Shown here piece after piece: positions 29,419-38,298 of a stretch of 64,000 bases of DNA (position 1 is the stretch's first letter; each line of letters opens with the position of its first letter). The position numbers and the translations under genes are program-made. Below the pieces are notes generated by a model. That model searched no databases and was not told where the DNA came from. It saw nothing but the letters and a program-made list of their open reading frames with translations. This DNA comes from Isoptericola cucumis (lineage in GTDB: Bacteria > Actinomycetota > Actinomycetes > Actinomycetales > Cellulomonadaceae), in assembly GCF_014635665.1 (NCBI RefSeq), contig NZ_BMDG01000008.1, forward strand, positions 124,001 through 188,000, given 5' to 3'.

Positions 29419-30939
29419 TCAGGCGCGCGTGGTGGCCTCCGCCAGCTCGCGGTCGTCCTTGGACCCGCCGTCCGACGCGGCGTCGGACGCGTCGTCGGAC
29501 GCGGCGGCGTCGGCCTGCTCGGCCGCGGCGTCGTCCGCCTCCGGCTCGTCGTCGTCGAACAGGTTCTCCGACGACGCGGCGCGGTACTGCTCGAGGTCGA
29601 GGATGCCCTCGCGCTTGGCGACGACGGTCGGCACGAGCGTCTGGCCGGCGACGTTCACGGCGGTGCGGCCCATGTCGAGGATCGGGTCCACGGCGAGCAG
29701 CAGGCCGACGCCGGCGAGCGGCAGGCCCAGGGTCGACAGCGTCAGCGTGAGCATGACCATGGCCCCGGTGAGCCCGGCGGTCGCGGCGGAGCCCACCACG
29801 GACACGAACGCGATCAGCAGGTAGTCGGTGATCGACAGGTCGACGCCGAAGATCTGCGCCACGAAGATCGCGGAGATCGCCGGGTAGATCGAGGCGCAGC
29901 CGTCCATCTTGGTCGTCGCGGCCAGCGGCACGGCGAACGACGCGTACTCGCTCGGGACGCCCAGGTTCCGCTCGGTCACGCGCTGCGTCACCGGCAGGGT
30001 GCCGATCGAGGAGCGGGAGACGAACGCCAGCTGGATGGCCGGCCAGGCACCCCGGAACCAGGCCATGACGCCCAGCCCGTTGGAGCGCAGCACCACCGGG
30101 TAGACGACGAACAGCACCAGCGCGAGGCCCACGTAGATCGCCAGCGAGAACGACGCGAGCGAGCGCAGCGACTCCCAGCCGTACGTCGCGACGGCGTTGC
30201 CGATGAGGCCCATCGTGCCCAGCGGCGCGAGGCGGATGATCCACCACAGCACCTTCTGCACGATGGCGAGGGCGGAGCGGTTGAAGGCGAGGAACGGGTC
30301 GGCCTTGGCGCCGGACTTGAGCGCCGCGATGCCGATGACGAGCGCGACCACGAGGATCTGCAGCACGTTGAAGCTGATCCCGGTCTCGGCGCTCAGCGCG
30401 CCGTCGGCGCCCGCCTCCACGGAGGTGTCGGCACCGAGGCCGAGCACGTTCGTGGGGATGAGCCCGTTGAGGAAGTCCATCCACGTGCCCGTGCTGGACG
30501 GCTCGGCCGCCTCCGCCGTGGTCAGGGTCGTGTTGTGACCGGGCTGGAAGACCAGGCCCAGGCCGATGCCGATCGCCACCGCGACGGCGGCCGTGATCGC
30601 GAACCAGAGCAGCGTCTGGCCGGCGAGGCGGGCCGCGTTGGTGACGGTGCGCAGGTTGGCGATCGACGCGACGATCGCCGTGAAGATCAGCGGCGGCACG
30701 ATCGCCTTGAGCAGGGTGACGAACGACGAGCCGATGGTGTCGAGGGTCGTCGTCAGTCCGTTGGGGACCGGGTCGGAGCCGTCCGTGCCGGGCGACTGCG
30801 GGCCCATGGACAGGGCCAGCCAGCCGAGCAGCACGCCGAGCACGAGGCCCAGGATGATCTGGACCGAGAAGGACGGGAAGCGCAGACCCTTGCGGGCGCG
30901 GGGCTGCGCTCCGGGGATCTTGGTCGTAGCGGAGGACAC
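29419..30939 (-). CDS. Dicarboxylate/amino acid:cation symporter (DAACS), probable cystine importer
   Basis: 506-residue secondary transporter of the DAACS fold with about eight helices and two re-entrant loops. HP1 motif SRSSIGTLPVT, TM7 region TTKMDGCASIYP and TM8 DMGRTAVNVAGQ are in place. The MDGC and SIGTLPVT variants resemble TcyP-type L-cystine symporters more than GltP or DctA. A leader peptide of the cysteine-attenuation type lies upstream on the same strand, which supports cystine or cysteine as substrate (inference). The C-terminal 60 residues form an acidic Asp/Ala-rich tail. GTG start at 30939 with GAAAGG upstream. Glutamate remains possible given the neighbouring hut genes. Confidence 0.85.
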   Translation of the reverse strand: MSSATTKIPGAQPRARKGLRFPSFSVQIILGLVLGVLLGWLALSMGPQSPGTDGSDPVPNGLTTTLDTIGSSFVTLLKAIVPPLIFTAIVASIANLRTVTNAARLAGQTLLWFAITAAVAVAIGIGLGLVFQPGHNTTLTTAEAAEPSSTGTWMDFLNGLIPTNVLGLGADTSVEAGADGALSAETGISFNVLQILVVALVIGIAALKSGAKADPFLAFNRSALAIVQKVLWWIIRLAPLGTMGLIGNAVATYGWESLRSLASFSLAIYVGLALVLFVVYPVVLRSNGLGVMAWFRGAWPAIQLAFVSRSSIGTLPVTQRVTERNLGVPSEYASFAVPLAATTKMDGCASIYPAISAIFVAQIFGVDLSITDYLLIAFVSVVGSAATAGLTGAMVMLTLTLSTLGLPLAGVGLLLAVDPILDMGRTAVNVAGQTLVPTVVAKREGILDLEQYRAASSENLFDDDEPEADDAAAEQADAAASDDASDAASDGGSKDDRELAEATTRA

Positions 30940-31080
30940 GGAGGGACCTTTCGCCTCGGGCGCCGGGCGGCAGGGAACCGGTCGGCGTCGTGGGGGACGT
31001 GGCGGCGCGGGGCGCGGCCGACGTCAGGACGGAGGGTGCACGGGAGGTGCGGGGCGCGTGGCAGCGCCGGGGGGTGCCGG

Positions 31081-31098
31081 GCCGTCGGCGTCGACGGC
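31081..31098 (-). promoter_or_regulatory. Hairpin downstream of the leader peptide (possible attenuator part)
   Basis: GCCGTCG-GCGT-CGACGGC is a perfect 7-base stem with a 4-base loop, starting 13 bases after the leader-peptide stop in the direction of the symporter gene. It could be one of the competing structures of a translation-coupled attenuator. It has no T tract, so it is not an intrinsic terminator by itself. Confidence 0.4.
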
Positions 31099-31111
31099 GG
31101 TCAGCGCAGGG

Positions 31112-31180
31112 TCAGCGACACAGCGCGCTGGCGACGCGACGGAAGTCGACATCCAGGCGCGCGGTGAGGAGCTTCCTCAC
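31112..31180 (-). CDS. Putative leader peptide of the cysteine-attenuation type
   Basis: 22-residue open frame starting GTG (MRK) and continuing LLTARLDVDFRRVASALCR, then TGA. The core LLTxRxxVDxxRVASALCR matches my memory of the short 'putative leader peptides' that precede sulfur- and cysteine-related genes in Streptomyces and relatives. In mycobacteria, Cys-containing uORFs are known to attenuate cysteine genes. The only Cys is the penultimate residue. It is followed by a hairpin and, 172 bases on, by the DAACS symporter on the same strand. No strong Shine-Dalgarno is visible. Confidence 0.7.
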   Translation of the reverse strand: MRKLLTARLDVDFRRVASALCR

Positions 31181-31245
31181 GGGAACGCTGACAGCCACAG
31201 GTGCTCCAGGCAAGATCGAGGATCGGGGGCCGATCACGCGGTCGA

Positions 31246-31262
31246 ATGATCGACATGATCGA
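31246..31262. promoter_or_regulatory. Direct repeat ATGATCGA x2 in the symporter/hutG intergenic region
   Basis: ATGATCGA occurs at 31246-31253 and 31255-31262, spaced nine bases, in a locally AT-rich patch between two divergent transcription units. GTCGA-ATGA-TCGAC (31241-31254) is also a small palindrome. It is a plausible operator; no regulator is assigned. Confidence 0.3.
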
Positions 31263-31360
31263 AGGTAGGTATCGAACCCACGAATACGGGACGATAGCAG
31301 GGACGCGGCGCGCCGCCCAAGGGGTGTGAGCCGAGTCATGCGCGTCGTACCGTCGGCAAC

Positions 31361-32320
31361 GTGACCGACGCCCCCCTCTCCCGCGACCCCCTCTGGCCAC
31401 GCGCGGGCGGTTGGCCTGCGACGACGCCCGACGGGTCGCGCGCCGACCTCGCGATGCTGGGCGTCCCCGCCTGGCGCACCTCGCTGTCGCCCACCGGCGC
31501 GCACGCCACGCCCGCCGCGGTGCGCGACGCGCTGCGCCGCTACAGCCCCGCGCTGATCGACGGGCCGGGCACGGCGGCCGACGCCGGGCCGGTCGACCTG
31601 TGCGAGCTCGACGTCGTCGACCTGGGCGACGTCGACGAGCCGGACGGCCCGGACGGCGAGGCGCGGACCCGCGCCGCCGTCACGTCGGCACTGGCGCAGG
31701 CGCGGGCGCTCGTCGCGCTCGGCGGCGACAACTCGCTCACCGTGGCGACCGCGCTCGGCGCCTGGGGCGACGACCTCGCCACCGCGGGCCTGGTCACCCT
31801 CGACGCCCACTACGACCTGCGCGACGGCGTCTCCAACGGTTCGCCCGTGCGGCGCCTGGTCGAGGCGGGCCTGGACCCGACGCGGATCGTGCAGGTCGGC
31901 ATCGCCGACTTCGCCAACTCGGCCGGGTACGCGCAGCGTGCCGCCGACCTCGGCATCACGGTCGTGACCCTCGACGACCTGCGCCGACGCGGTCCCGGGG
32001 CGCTGGCCGACGTCGCCCGCGAGGCGCTCGAGGTCGCCGGCGCCGCGGGCGGGCCGGTGCACCTGGACGTCGACGTCGACGTGTGCGACCGCTCCGTCGC
32101 GCCCGGCTGCCCGGCGAGCGTGCCGGGCGGGCTCGCCGCGTGGGAGCTGCGCGCCCTCGTCCGCGAGGTGTCGCGCGACGAGCGCGTGCGCTCGGTCGAC
32201 GTCGCCGAGGTGGACGCGACCGCGGACGCCCCCGACGGGCGCACGGTGCGCCTGGCCGCGCTGTGCGTGCTGGAGGTCCTCGCCGGCCTGGCGCTGCGGC
32301 GGGCGCCGGCTGCGGTCTAG
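31361..32320 (+). CDS. hutG: Formimidoylglutamase
   Basis: 319-residue ureohydrolase (arginase/agmatinase fold, Mn-dependent) that converts N-formimino-L-glutamate to glutamate and formamide, the last step of histidine breakdown. Metal-site motifs: GGDNS (residues 121-125), DAHYDL (Asp148, His150, Asp152) and DVDVDVCD (Asp238, Asp240, Asp243). The first motif has Asn124 where most ureohydrolases have a metal-binding His (GGDHS). Assignment rests on the fold plus the adjacent hutI, hutU and hutH. GTG start at 31361. It lies apart from hutHUI and reads in the opposite direction, with the stop overlapping the tetR stop by four bases. Confidence 0.87.
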   Translation: MTDAPLSRDPLWPRAGGWPATTPDGSRADLAMLGVPAWRTSLSPTGAHATPAAVRDALRRYSPALIDGPGTAADAGPVDLCELDVVDLGDVDEPDGPDGEARTRAAVTSALAQARALVALGGDNSLTVATALGAWGDDLATAGLVTLDAHYDLRDGVSNGSPVRRLVEAGLDPTRIVQVGIADFANSAGYAQRAADLGITVVTLDDLRRRGPGALADVAREALEVAGAAGGPVHLDVDVDVCDRSVAPGCPASVPGGLAAWELRALVREVSRDERVRSVDVAEVDATADAPDGRTVRLAALCVLEVLAGLALRRAPAAV

Positions 32321-33589: not shown

Positions 33590-34876
33590 CTAGACCTGCC
33601 GCCCGCCCTGCCACACCGCGTGCACCAGCGGGACACCGGGGCGGTACGCCAGATGGGTGCGGCTGGGGGCGTCGAGCACGACGGCGTCGGCGCGGGCGCC
33701 CGGCGCGAGGTGCCCGACGTCGTCGCGCCGCAGCGCCCGCGCGCCGCCCGCCGTCGCGGCCCACACGGCCTCGGGCACGGTCATGCCCATCTCCCGCACG
33801 GCGAGCGCCACCATGAGCGGCATCGAGCTCGTGTACGACGAGCCGGGGTTGCAGTCGCTCGCCAGCGCGACGACGGCGCCCGCGTCGAGCAGCCGCCGCG
33901 CGTCGGGGTACGGCTGCCGGGTGGAGAACTCGACGCCGGGCAGCAAGGTCGCGACGGTCCCGTGAGCGGCGGGGCCGGACGAGCCGCCCGACGCGCCGCC
34001 CGACGACCACGAGCCCGCGAGCGCCGCGACGTCGTCGTCGGACAGGTACGTGCAGTGGTCGACGGCGGCGGCGCCGAGGTCGACGGCGAGCCGCACGCCC
34101 TCCCCCGGGCCGAGCTGGTTGGCGTGCACCCGCACGCCGAGGCCGGCGGCGGCGCCTGCCTCCAGCACCCGCCGCGACTGCTCGGGGGTGAACGCACCGG
34201 TCTCGCAGAACACGTCGATCCACCGCGCGTGCGGGGCGCACGCGGCGAGCATGTCGCCGACCACGAGGTCGACGTACGCATCCGGGTCGTCCGCGCACTC
34301 CGGCGGCACCACGTGCGCTCCGAGGAACGTCACCTCGTCGGTGACCTCCGCGGCGAGGCGCACCGCGCGTTCCTCGTCGGCCACGGACAGGCCGTACCCG
34401 CTCTTGACCTCGAGCGTCGTGGTGCCCTGCGCGAGCGCCTCGTCGACGTGCTTGCGCAGGTTCGCGCGCAGCGCGTCGTCGGACGCCGCCCGCGTCGCGG
34501 CGACGGTGGTGCGGATGCCGCCCGCCGCGTACGGGCGCCCGGCCATGCGCGCCTCGAACTCGGCCGTCCGGTCGCCGTCGAACACGAGGTGGGTGTGGGA
34601 GTCGACGAACCCGGGCAGCACGGCGCGCCCCTCGACCGCGACCACACGGTCCGGCGCCCGCCCGAGCGCCTGCTCCACGCCGTCGGCGCACGCGCTCTCC
34701 GTGCCCACCCATGCCACCCGTCCGCCGTCCAGCAGCAGCGCGGCGTCGCGGACGAGGCCGGTCGGGTCGTCGGCCGGATCGACGCCGACCACCTCGGGGG
34801 CGTTGGTCGTGAGCTCGCCGATGCCCAGGATCAGGGTCGCCGGGTGTGCGCCCCCGGGATGCTCCACCTCGCGCAC
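33590..34876 (-). CDS. hutI: Imidazolonepropionase
   Basis: 428-residue metal-dependent amidohydrolase, third step of histidine degradation (4-imidazolone-5-propanoate to N-formimino-L-glutamate). Metal ligands: VDSHTHLVF (HxH near the N-terminus), ANQLGPGEG region after VRVHA, DHCTYL and [14 protein letters not shown] with the catalytic Asp. The N-terminal [13 protein letters not shown] strand and C-terminal [10 protein letters not shown] are typical. GTG start at 34876, one base after the hutU stop codon. Last gene of the hutH-hutU-hutI operon. Confidence 0.95.
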
Positions 34877-34877
34877 G

Positions 34878-36602
<1,725 letters not shown>

Positions 36603-36633
36603 CGTCGTCTCCTTCGGCGAGGTCAGGTCGGTG

Positions 36634-38298
36634 TCAGCGGAGCGGCCCGACGGCGCCGCTCGCGGCGGCGGCCACGCCGCCGTCGGCAACGAGCCGGGTC
36701 ACGGCGTCGATCTCGGGGGCGAGGAAGCGGTCCGGGCCGGGGCCGGGGACGGCCGTGCGCAGCAGGTCGTGGACGGCGCCGGTGCCGGCGGCGGGCGTCA
36801 GGCCGGACTCGGGGGTGCAGCGCAGGTCGAGGGCGCGGGCGGCGGTCATGAGCTCGACGGCGAGCACGCGGCCCAGGCCGTCGACGGCGCGGCGCAGCTT
36901 GCGGGCGCCGGCCCAGCCCATGGACACGTGGTCCTCCTGCATGGCCGACGACGGGATGGAGTCGACGCTCGCCGGAGCGGCGAGGCGCTTGAGCTCGCTC
37001 ACGATCCCCGCAGCCGTGTACTGCGCGATCATCAGGCCGGAGTCGACGCCCGGGTCGTCGGCGAGGAACGCCGGCAGCCCCTCGTTGCGTGCGACGTCGA
37101 GGAACCGGTCGGTGCGCCGCTCGCTCATGCTCGCGACGTCGGCCACCGCCACGGCGAGGAAGTCCAGCACGTACGCGACCGGGGCGCCGTGGAAGTTGCC
37201 GTTGGACTCGACCCGCCCGTCCACGGTGACGACGGGGTTGTCGATGGCGGAGGCGAGCTCGCGGCCCGCGACGGTCTCGGCGTGGTCCAGGGTGTCGCGG
37301 GCCGCGCCGTGCACCTGCGGCGCGCAGCGCAGCGAGTACGCGTCCTGCACGCGGGTGCACTCGGGGCGGCCCTCGGCGTCGAAGGTGCGGTGGCTCGCCA
37401 CGACCGGCGAGCCGGCCAGCAGCGCGCGCAGGTTCGCGGCCGACGCCGCCTGGCCCGGGTGCGGGCGCATGCCCACCAGGTCCTCGGCGAACGGCGCGTC
37501 CGAGCCGAGCAGCGCCTCGACGCTCGACGCCGCCGCGACGTCCGCCGTCGTGAGCAGGCGGTGCAGGTCGTCGAGGGCGAGGCACAGCATGCCGAGCATG
37601 CCGTCCGTGCCGTTGATGAGGGCGAGGCCCTCCTTCTCGCGCAGCTTCAGCGGCGCGATGCCCGCGGCCGCGAGCGCCTCGGCGGCGTCGACACGCTCGC
37701 CGTCTTCCTCCGGGCCGGTCGAGACCCGCACCGGGCCCTCGCCGAGCGCGGCGAGCGCCACGTGGGCGAGCGGCGCGAGGTCGCCCGAGCAGCCGAGCGA
37801 GCCGTACTCGTGCACGACGGGCGTGATGCCGGCGTTGAGCATCGCGGCGTACGTCTCGGCGACGACGGGGCGCGCGCCCGTGCGGCCGGTGGCGAGTGTC
37901 GCGAGGCGGAGGAGCTGCAGGGCGCGGACGACCTCGCGCTCCACCTCCGGGCCGCTGCCCGCGGCGTGCGAGCGCACCAGGCCGAGCTGCAGCTGCGCCC
38001 GCTTGTCGACGGGGATGTGGCGGCGAGCCAGGGCGCCGAAGCCGGTGGAGACGCCGTAGTGCGGGCGGTCGTCGTCGGCCAGGTCCTCGACGACGGCGCG
38101 GCTCGCCGCCATCGACTCCAGCGCGCGGTCGGTGAGGCGCACCGCGGCGCCGTGCCGGGCGACGGCGACGACGTCCGCGACGGACAGCGGGTCGCCGGTG
38201 ATCTCGACGGTGGTCGTGGCGGCGCTCGTGGCGCTCGTGGCGGTGCGGCCGGCCACGGGGGTGGTGCGGTCGGCGGGGTGCTGCAGCGTGTCGGCCAT
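36634..38298 (-). CDS. hutH: Histidine ammonia-lyase
   Basis: 554-residue lyase, first step of histidine degradation (histidine to urocanate and ammonia). The MIO prosthetic group forms from the tripeptide Cys170-Ser171-Gly172 in [12 protein letters not shown]; Cys in place of the more common Ala is, as far as I recall, usual in streptomycete histidases. The active-site Tyr81 is in YGVSTGFG and the [14 protein letters not shown] helix is intact. The first 30 residues are Thr/Ala-rich and not conserved. ATG at 38298 is used; a GTG at 38334 in frame is possible. First gene of hutH-hutU-hutI, with a HutR-like palindrome upstream. Confidence 0.95.

Follow-up and report, generated by a model that had tools for sequence, protein, structure and literature searches.

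A conserved cysteine-type leader peptide with a single TGT cysteine codon precedes a DAACS symporter gene in Isoptericola cucumis and other actinobacteria

The window analysed here, a 64,000-nt stretch of contig NZ_BMDG01000008.1 of Isoptericola cucumis, carries on its minus strand a DAACS/SDF symporter gene (29419..30939; PF00375, 337 bits) that encodes 506 aa and has the sequence MDGCASIYPA in TM7. GAAAGG (30947..30952, minus strand) is the likely ribosome-binding site (RBS) of the symporter, and GCGAAAGG is kept in 7/7 loci of the genus. Upstream on the same strand lies a leader peptide gene of 28 codons (31112..31198), assigned from a conserved start and core, which begins with GTG and reads VAVSVPVRKLLTARLDVDFRRVASALCR-TGA, with residue 1 given as M. 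A Shine-Dalgarno GGAG (31204..31207, minus strand) stands 5 nt 5' of this GTG with identical spacing in all seven genus loci. Cysteine is encoded once in the leader, by a TGT two codons ahead of the stop (31118..31120, minus strand), which is the putative regulatory codon. A C-rich, G-poor tract (30955..31111, minus strand; C 55%, G 28%) follows the leader and is, by its composition, a candidate rut-like Rho-entry region. The divergent neighbour of the symporter is a hutG-like gene (31361-32320, plus strand) that scores 150 bits with the hutG model, below its cut-off, and the frames at 33590-34876 and 34878-36689 (both minus strand) resemble hutI and hutU by reading of their translations. No Rfam family matched at gathering score anywhere in the window, and a known Rfam element was rejected on these grounds.

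The initial annotation had described a 22-codon minus-strand frame that starts at 31180 and ends in RRVASALCR and TGA. The end of this frame is confirmed in the window sequence, where the stop TGA (31114-31112) follows RRVASALCR; so are the one Cys codon (TGT, 31120-31118) and the reported spacings, with a perfect 7-bp hairpin 13 bases past the stop and the start codon of the symporter (GTG, 30939) at a distance of 172 bases from it. The start was misplaced. GTG 31198 with GGAG 5 nt upstream occurs in 7/7 genus loci, whereas GTG 31180 is replaced by GCG in one of them (G010/L087). In this same locus the leader ends at an earlier TGA because of 17 nt inserted after TGTCG; a second GTCGCTGACC remains behind it, and the symporter match has one in-frame TGA. 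The opening of the leader frame extends over 437 codons in its own genome, so that openness alone is no evidence for a leader. In several other genomes of the genus the frame is short (49, 52, 73 and 130 aa) and encodes the same peptide.

We searched for the 19-residue core of the peptide, at a score of at least 30, in the 700 nt upstream of the symporter at 87 loci, made up of the best 80 of a larger number of related loci plus the 7 genus loci, own locus included. The core was found in 41 of these 87 listed loci. It reached this score in 0/87 listed loci on the reverse strand, 0/87 downstream and 0/87 after block shuffling, with maxima of 28, 28 and 26, respectively. A profile HMM built from the core-score leaders added nine divergent ones (E 8e-10 to 8e-5; best reverse-strand match, E 0.095), all of which, among the listed loci, belong to Geodermatophilaceae. 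Aligned with the uORFs ahead of orthologous symporters, the peptide is therefore conserved in 50/87 listed loci, 41 by core score and nine by HMM. Carriers include Cellulosimicrobium, Oerskovia, Luteimicrobium, Cellulomonas, Paraoerskovia, Sediminihabitans and Actinotalea, and further Georgenia, Nocardioides, Jiangella, Nocardiopsis, Blastococcus and Geodermatophilus. The leader is lacking at 37/87 listed orthologues, including 12/12 in Pseudomonadota and 15/15 in the Micrococcaceae/Microbacteriaceae clade. Within the genus the symporter occurs in 6/18 genomes (7 loci), and a search with the NCBIfam model NF042934 found the leader at 7/7 of these loci. Of the 12 genus genomes without the symporter, 11 had no NF042934 match and one matched weakly, within frames of 414-1021 codons.

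The codon used for the conserved cysteine is nearly invariant. At the aligned Cys position TGT was found in 41/41 core-score loci and in 6/9 divergent leaders, the remaining three having TGA, TGA and TGG. Taken together, TGT occupies this place in 47/50 leader loci and TGC in none, with Cys lost in three. These three leaders (L033, L041 and L038, from Blastococcus and Geodermatophilus) keep the motif while the Cys codon has become TGA, TGA and TGG, respectively; they are either decaying or have a peptide role without need for Cys. At the 41 core-score loci the symporter genes encode Cys exclusively by TGC (41/41 codons), and the coding-like ORFs of these loci use TGC and TGT at 367 : 59. All leader Cys codons together number 44 TGT : 7 TGC, which differs from the coding-like ORFs with an odds ratio of 39 (Fisher, p 3e-26; the sequences are related, so this p is too small, though the uniformity is evident). 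Among leaders collected across the order, the Cys of SA-x-C is TGT in 28/30, with TGC in L139 and L156. In the best-scoring 30 loci of the class, which include leaders with long Cys runs, all Cys codons together are mixed (TGT 65 : TGC 61), and the TGT rule is therefore limited to the SA-x-C cysteine and does not extend to every Cys codon. These alignments show that TGT is very strongly selected at the single Cys codon. The bias extends to other synonymous sites: among the 38 unique cores of the core-score leaders Val is GTC in 37/38 and in 25/25, and Ser is AGC in 37/38 against a background of 20%. This bias indicates that constraints at the level of RNA or codons operate in addition to those on the peptide. 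No covariation of codon 4 with codon 17, as in a leader-internal stem, was seen in the 38 unique cores (GAG-CTC 5, GAG-CTG 4, CAG-CTC 4, CAG-CTG 3).

A frame that merely happens to be open in GC-rich DNA is left with a negligible probability by these results. Such a frame would account for the 437-codon opening, which makes openness meaningless in this genome, but it does not account for a core at 41/87 listed loci against 0/87 in each of three controls, for TGT in 41/41, or for the same peptide in genus genomes with short frames. We rejected it on this conservation, and the peptide is almost certainly a conserved functional leader.

The leader belongs near a known family. The 28-aa peptide matches NF042934 with 22.1 bits (E 8.5e-5) and in the genome search with 20.4 bits, and the curated cut-off of this model was reached in 0/18 genus genomes. 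In other genera the cut-off is exceeded by orthologues of the leader that stand ahead of the same symporter (L141, 35.5 bits). Across the class NF042934 matched at E <= 1e-3 in 198/296 genomes, in 176 of them above cut-off, and in 0/14 control genomes. The class loci that we fetched were the 30 best-scoring ones, skewed to few genera, and in 30/30 a same-strand downstream gene fits sulfur or cysteine metabolism, with representatives confirmed by Pfam: two-domain rhodanese and/or DUF4395 (21), sulfatase (3), NIR/SIR reductase (2), CysM-like PLP enzyme (2, at 410-431 nt) and luciferase-like monooxygenase (2). For the SIR-type, PLP and luciferase-like enzymes we infer sulfur substrates. In the order, matches at E <= 5e-4 were present in 55/297 genomes, 38 of them above cut-off. 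The downstream ORF could be extracted at 29/30 order loci, and in 9/29 it is the same symporter (69-78% identity). The other downstream genes encode TauD, TauE, an SsuE-type FMN reductase, CysD, rhodanese, NIR/SIR reductase and a MetQ/NlpA lipoprotein. Family-5 and family-1 solute-binding proteins and an FAD-NAD(P)-binding protein, for which a sulfur link is not evident, are encoded there as well. These assignments rest on HMM scans for 12/29 ORFs, on BLAST for the nine symporters (two of them among the scanned 12) and on translations for the other 10; downstream ORFs were chosen by base composition, and gene starts may be misplaced.

Symporter-first and leader-first searches, which are independent directions, led to the same leader-symporter pair. 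The initial annotation had likened the peptide to actinobacterial leaders linked to cysteine supply. That assignment is borne out by the NF042934 match (below cut-off), the conservation before orthologues, the relatives before sulfur genes and the selection for TGT, and we regard cysteine sensing by the leader as very likely. Two groups of genes behind cysteine-type leaders were also noted. In one genus FAD-NAD(P)-binding protein genes stand in this position (L139, L148, L155 and L157; L139, the sole one scanned, is PF13454) and are possibly unrecognised sulfur genes. Family-5 solute-binding protein genes follow the leader at L152 and L160-L163 (L160, TIGR04028, 640 bits) and are candidates for sulfur-compound import.

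The RNA between leader and symporter has an unusual composition. From leader stop to symporter RBS the mean content is 0.51 C and 0.27 G, and C exceeds G in 31/31 measurable loci; of the 41 core-score loci, five had no symporter start found and five had less than 40 nt remaining. The tract ranks within the top 2% of equally long stretches from its own locus in 31/31 leader loci (median 0.12%), compared with 2/36 leaderless orthologue loci (36 of the 37 served as this control). Across the window, no other region among 127,688 equally long segments on both strands attains both the C content of the tract and its excess of C. YC dinucleotides average 0.29 per nt, a figure without a control. The tract is mildly less structured than its own locus in 24/31 loci and more structured than shuffles of the same composition. 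Where the leader family stands before other genes the tract is less pronounced, with top-2% values in 5/30 class loci and 5/16 order loci. At the divergent Geodermatophilaceae leader loci 0/8 were in the top 2%; the stretch measured there was a constant 150 nt overlapping the leader. Among the rut features given in PMC12121999 are a high C:G ratio, YC dinucleotides and a low degree of structure. The genome encodes Rho (637 bits). No intrinsic terminator was found in 30850-31450, where the 7-bp hairpin is followed by CCGGCACC with no T run, and an attenuator of the intrinsic-terminator type was rejected for this region.

The hairpin itself (GCCGTCG-ACGC-CGACGGC; 31081..31098, minus strand) begins 13 nt after the leader stop. 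All seven loci of the genus have it, with changes that compensate each other (GCCGTCG/CGACGGC to GTCGTCG/CGACGAC, and CCGCCG/CGGCGG), and occurs sporadically at the same place in other genera. A consensus fold of five genus sequences consists mostly of invariant pairs, with two changed on both sides and an unfavourable covariation term (+3.84). The initial annotation had placed the hairpin behind the leader; as a general part of the system it is not supported, being kept in the genus and not generally beyond it, and it may be a local addition. A direct repeat, CGCTGAC, lies over the stop (31117-31111) and after it (31106-31100), spanning 31100..31117 on the minus strand, and was noted for its complementarity to the leader. 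GTCAGCG within the leader (31192-31186) is complementary to both copies, an arrangement partly seen in Cellulosimicrobium. On sequence grounds a mutually exclusive alternative pairing of GTCAGCG with CGCTGAC is possible.

What the symporter carries was judged from its own sequence and from its neighbours. GCAxxYPA in TM7 is common to the window symporter and E. coli TcyP, which is annotated as a cystine/sulfocysteine:cation symporter, and this segment is one residue longer than in GltP, DctA and a solved aspartate transporter. The comparison covered the TcyP of E. coli plus three further carriers of this species, so that the motif is a lead and not an established marker. TM8 is also similar to that of TcyP (P-[IL]-[LI]-DMGRTA-[VL]-NV). 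An ordinary glutamate or C4-dicarboxylate carrier, possibly tied to hut, whose leader, if active, adjusts something besides cysteine supply, would fit the higher overall identity to GltP (32.4%) than to TcyP (27.8%; 30% by BLAST over 402 positions), the best NCBIfam scores with DctA and GltP (all below cut-off) and the divergent hutG next door. It would also fit the Asp and Arg positions of TM8, which we take to bind substrate in glutamate carriers and which are kept here; TcyP retains both too. This reading is nevertheless unlikely. The TM7 segment is that of TcyP and unlike GltP or DctA, the leader family marks sulfur genes, and hutG adjoins the symporter in 7/7 genus loci but in 0/80 other listed loci. 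A hut-linked symporter was rejected on this last count. A tree with the four E. coli carriers, in which L086 was entered as the window sequence and L091 was left out, had reference branches too long to place the symporter. The initial annotation had held that the leader names the substrate: the leader and the TcyP-like TM7 do point to a cystine or cysteine source, while overall identity is higher to GltP. We consider it reasonably likely that the substrate is cystine or a near relative.

The reading that we prefer, and hold to be probable, is cysteine-responsive leader control of a cysteine-supply importer, with the second step left open. Ribosomes would start at the leader GTG (31198). When Cys-tRNA is plentiful they would pass UGU, terminate at UGA and leave, and the C-rich, G-poor RNA past the stop would then lie open, most likely to Rho, with a shortened symporter message as the outcome. 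When cysteine is short, ribosomes would stall at UGU and the importer would be on; the symporter would then bring in cystine or another cysteine source. The second step could instead be translation attenuation, in which the stalled ribosome prevents a structure that otherwise hides the symporter RBS. This follows the model of mycobacterial polycysteine leaders, in which stalled ribosomes reportedly open a hidden RBS. Papers that cite Canestrari et al. (2020) refer to cysteine genes of M. smegmatis as being controlled at translation, and in our folding predictions removal of the leader opens the RBS by >0.1 in 8/35 loci. Against this, predicted RBS openness equals that of shuffled upstream sequence (mean 0.43 vs 0.43 in 35/41 core-score loci, below shuffled in 11/35), although thermodynamic folding is weak for GC-rich RNA. 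In the window the predicted values are 0.49 vs 0.49 shuffled and 0.52 without the leader. We hold control at the RBS to be rather unlikely. The lack of an intrinsic terminator in the searched region, an RBS openness equal to shuffles, the recurrent C-rich tract and the encoded Rho together favour a Rho-gated attenuator. Stalling at UGU would let a ribosome mask no more than roughly the first 10 nt of the 157-nt tract, which counts against the Rho step, and for Rho as the second step we would put the chance somewhat below even.

The sensor might also be an arrest peptide, with LTxRRxVDLxRVASA acting in the exit tunnel, so that stalling needs the nascent chain and not empty Cys-tRNA alone. About 12 non-Cys residues are kept across families, though a tRNA sensor needs the codon alone; the motif is common to polycysteine leaders, and the three leaders that lost Cys retain it. 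The constraint on Val GTC and Ser AGC suggests, however, that this conservation may be partly at the RNA or codon level, and near-invariant TGT points to Cys decoding; an arrest peptide of this kind is improbable as the sensor. A more elaborate form of the preferred cysteine-responsive control can be offered tentatively. The nascent-chain motif and a near-invariant, slow UGU would hold the ribosome together, the conserved C-rich, G-poor tract would gate Rho, and the TcyP-like importer and its organosulfur uptake relatives would share a one-codon cysteine report.

Judged by titles and the beginnings of abstracts, no open-licence paper listed in our searches connects the leader with a DAACS symporter; the subscription literature was mostly outside this coverage. 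Compared with known cysteine leaders, the single TGT-only Cys codon, the Shine-Dalgarno start, the symporter target and the C-rich tract appear to be new here. Substrates of the SDF family are hard to tell by sequence, and the leader ties one such symporter to cysteine supply. It provides a substrate hypothesis for symporter orthologues in many actinobacteria. The findings further suggest that a single UGU codon, not a Cys run, can serve as a sensor. They raise the questions of why UGU and never UGC is found at the Cys place, and of whether Rho or RBS sequestration is the second step in high-GC actinobacteria.

The closest described family is NF042934 (cis_reg_atten, 'putative leader peptide'), with which the window leader shares the core L-T-x-R-x-x-V-D-x-x-R-V-A-S-A-x-C. 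Its 22.1 bits lie under the cut-off of 27, so that annotation at this cut-off passes over the window leader and the family model misses the leaders of the genus. The mycobacterial polycysteine short ORFs (NF042936, Ms4527A; NF042933, Ms5788A) have the N-terminal LTxRRxVDLxRVA and Cys codons near the stop, which are also seen in the window leader, and they likewise stand before sulfur genes; the window leader matches both NCBIfam models weakly. It differs from them in having one Cys codon where they have a Cys run, and in its symporter target. Its GTG is led by a Shine-Dalgarno sequence, whereas the polycysteine ORFs are leaderless according to the title of Canestrari et al. (2020). That paper is cited elsewhere for cysteine-responsive attenuation by polycysteine short ORFs, and 'translation attenuation' is the wording of citing papers for its system. 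In contrast to the mycobacterial polycysteine model, predicted folding gives no indication here that the symporter RBS is hidden. For mycobacteria, PMC4633059 describes a uORF before cysA2 that is rich in cysteine and occupied by ribosomes. Seliverstov et al. (2005; PMC1262725) predicted cysteine leaders before cys operons with no obvious terminators and suggested Rho-dependent termination; their leaders have Cys-codon runs, come from Mycobacterium, Propionibacterium and Bifidobacterium, and have Rho motifs that are called not conserved. Behind the window leader likewise no intrinsic terminator was found (30850-31450), and here the C-rich tract is present in 31/31 measurable loci. In tnaC-tna of E. 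coli a short leader without an intrinsic terminator is followed by Rho entry just after the leader stop, and tnaC senses free tryptophan via the nascent chain. The same layout, with Rho entry behind the stop, is proposed for the window leader, for which the proposed signal is scarce charged tRNA and Rho is a proposal. The tnaC-tna operon is itself cited as a Rho precedent in PMC1262725. Finally, E. coli TcyP (YdjN, b1729) is of the SDF family as well, with GCAxxYPA and the extra residue in TM7 and an alike TM8; the window symporter has KMDG where TcyP has GQNG.
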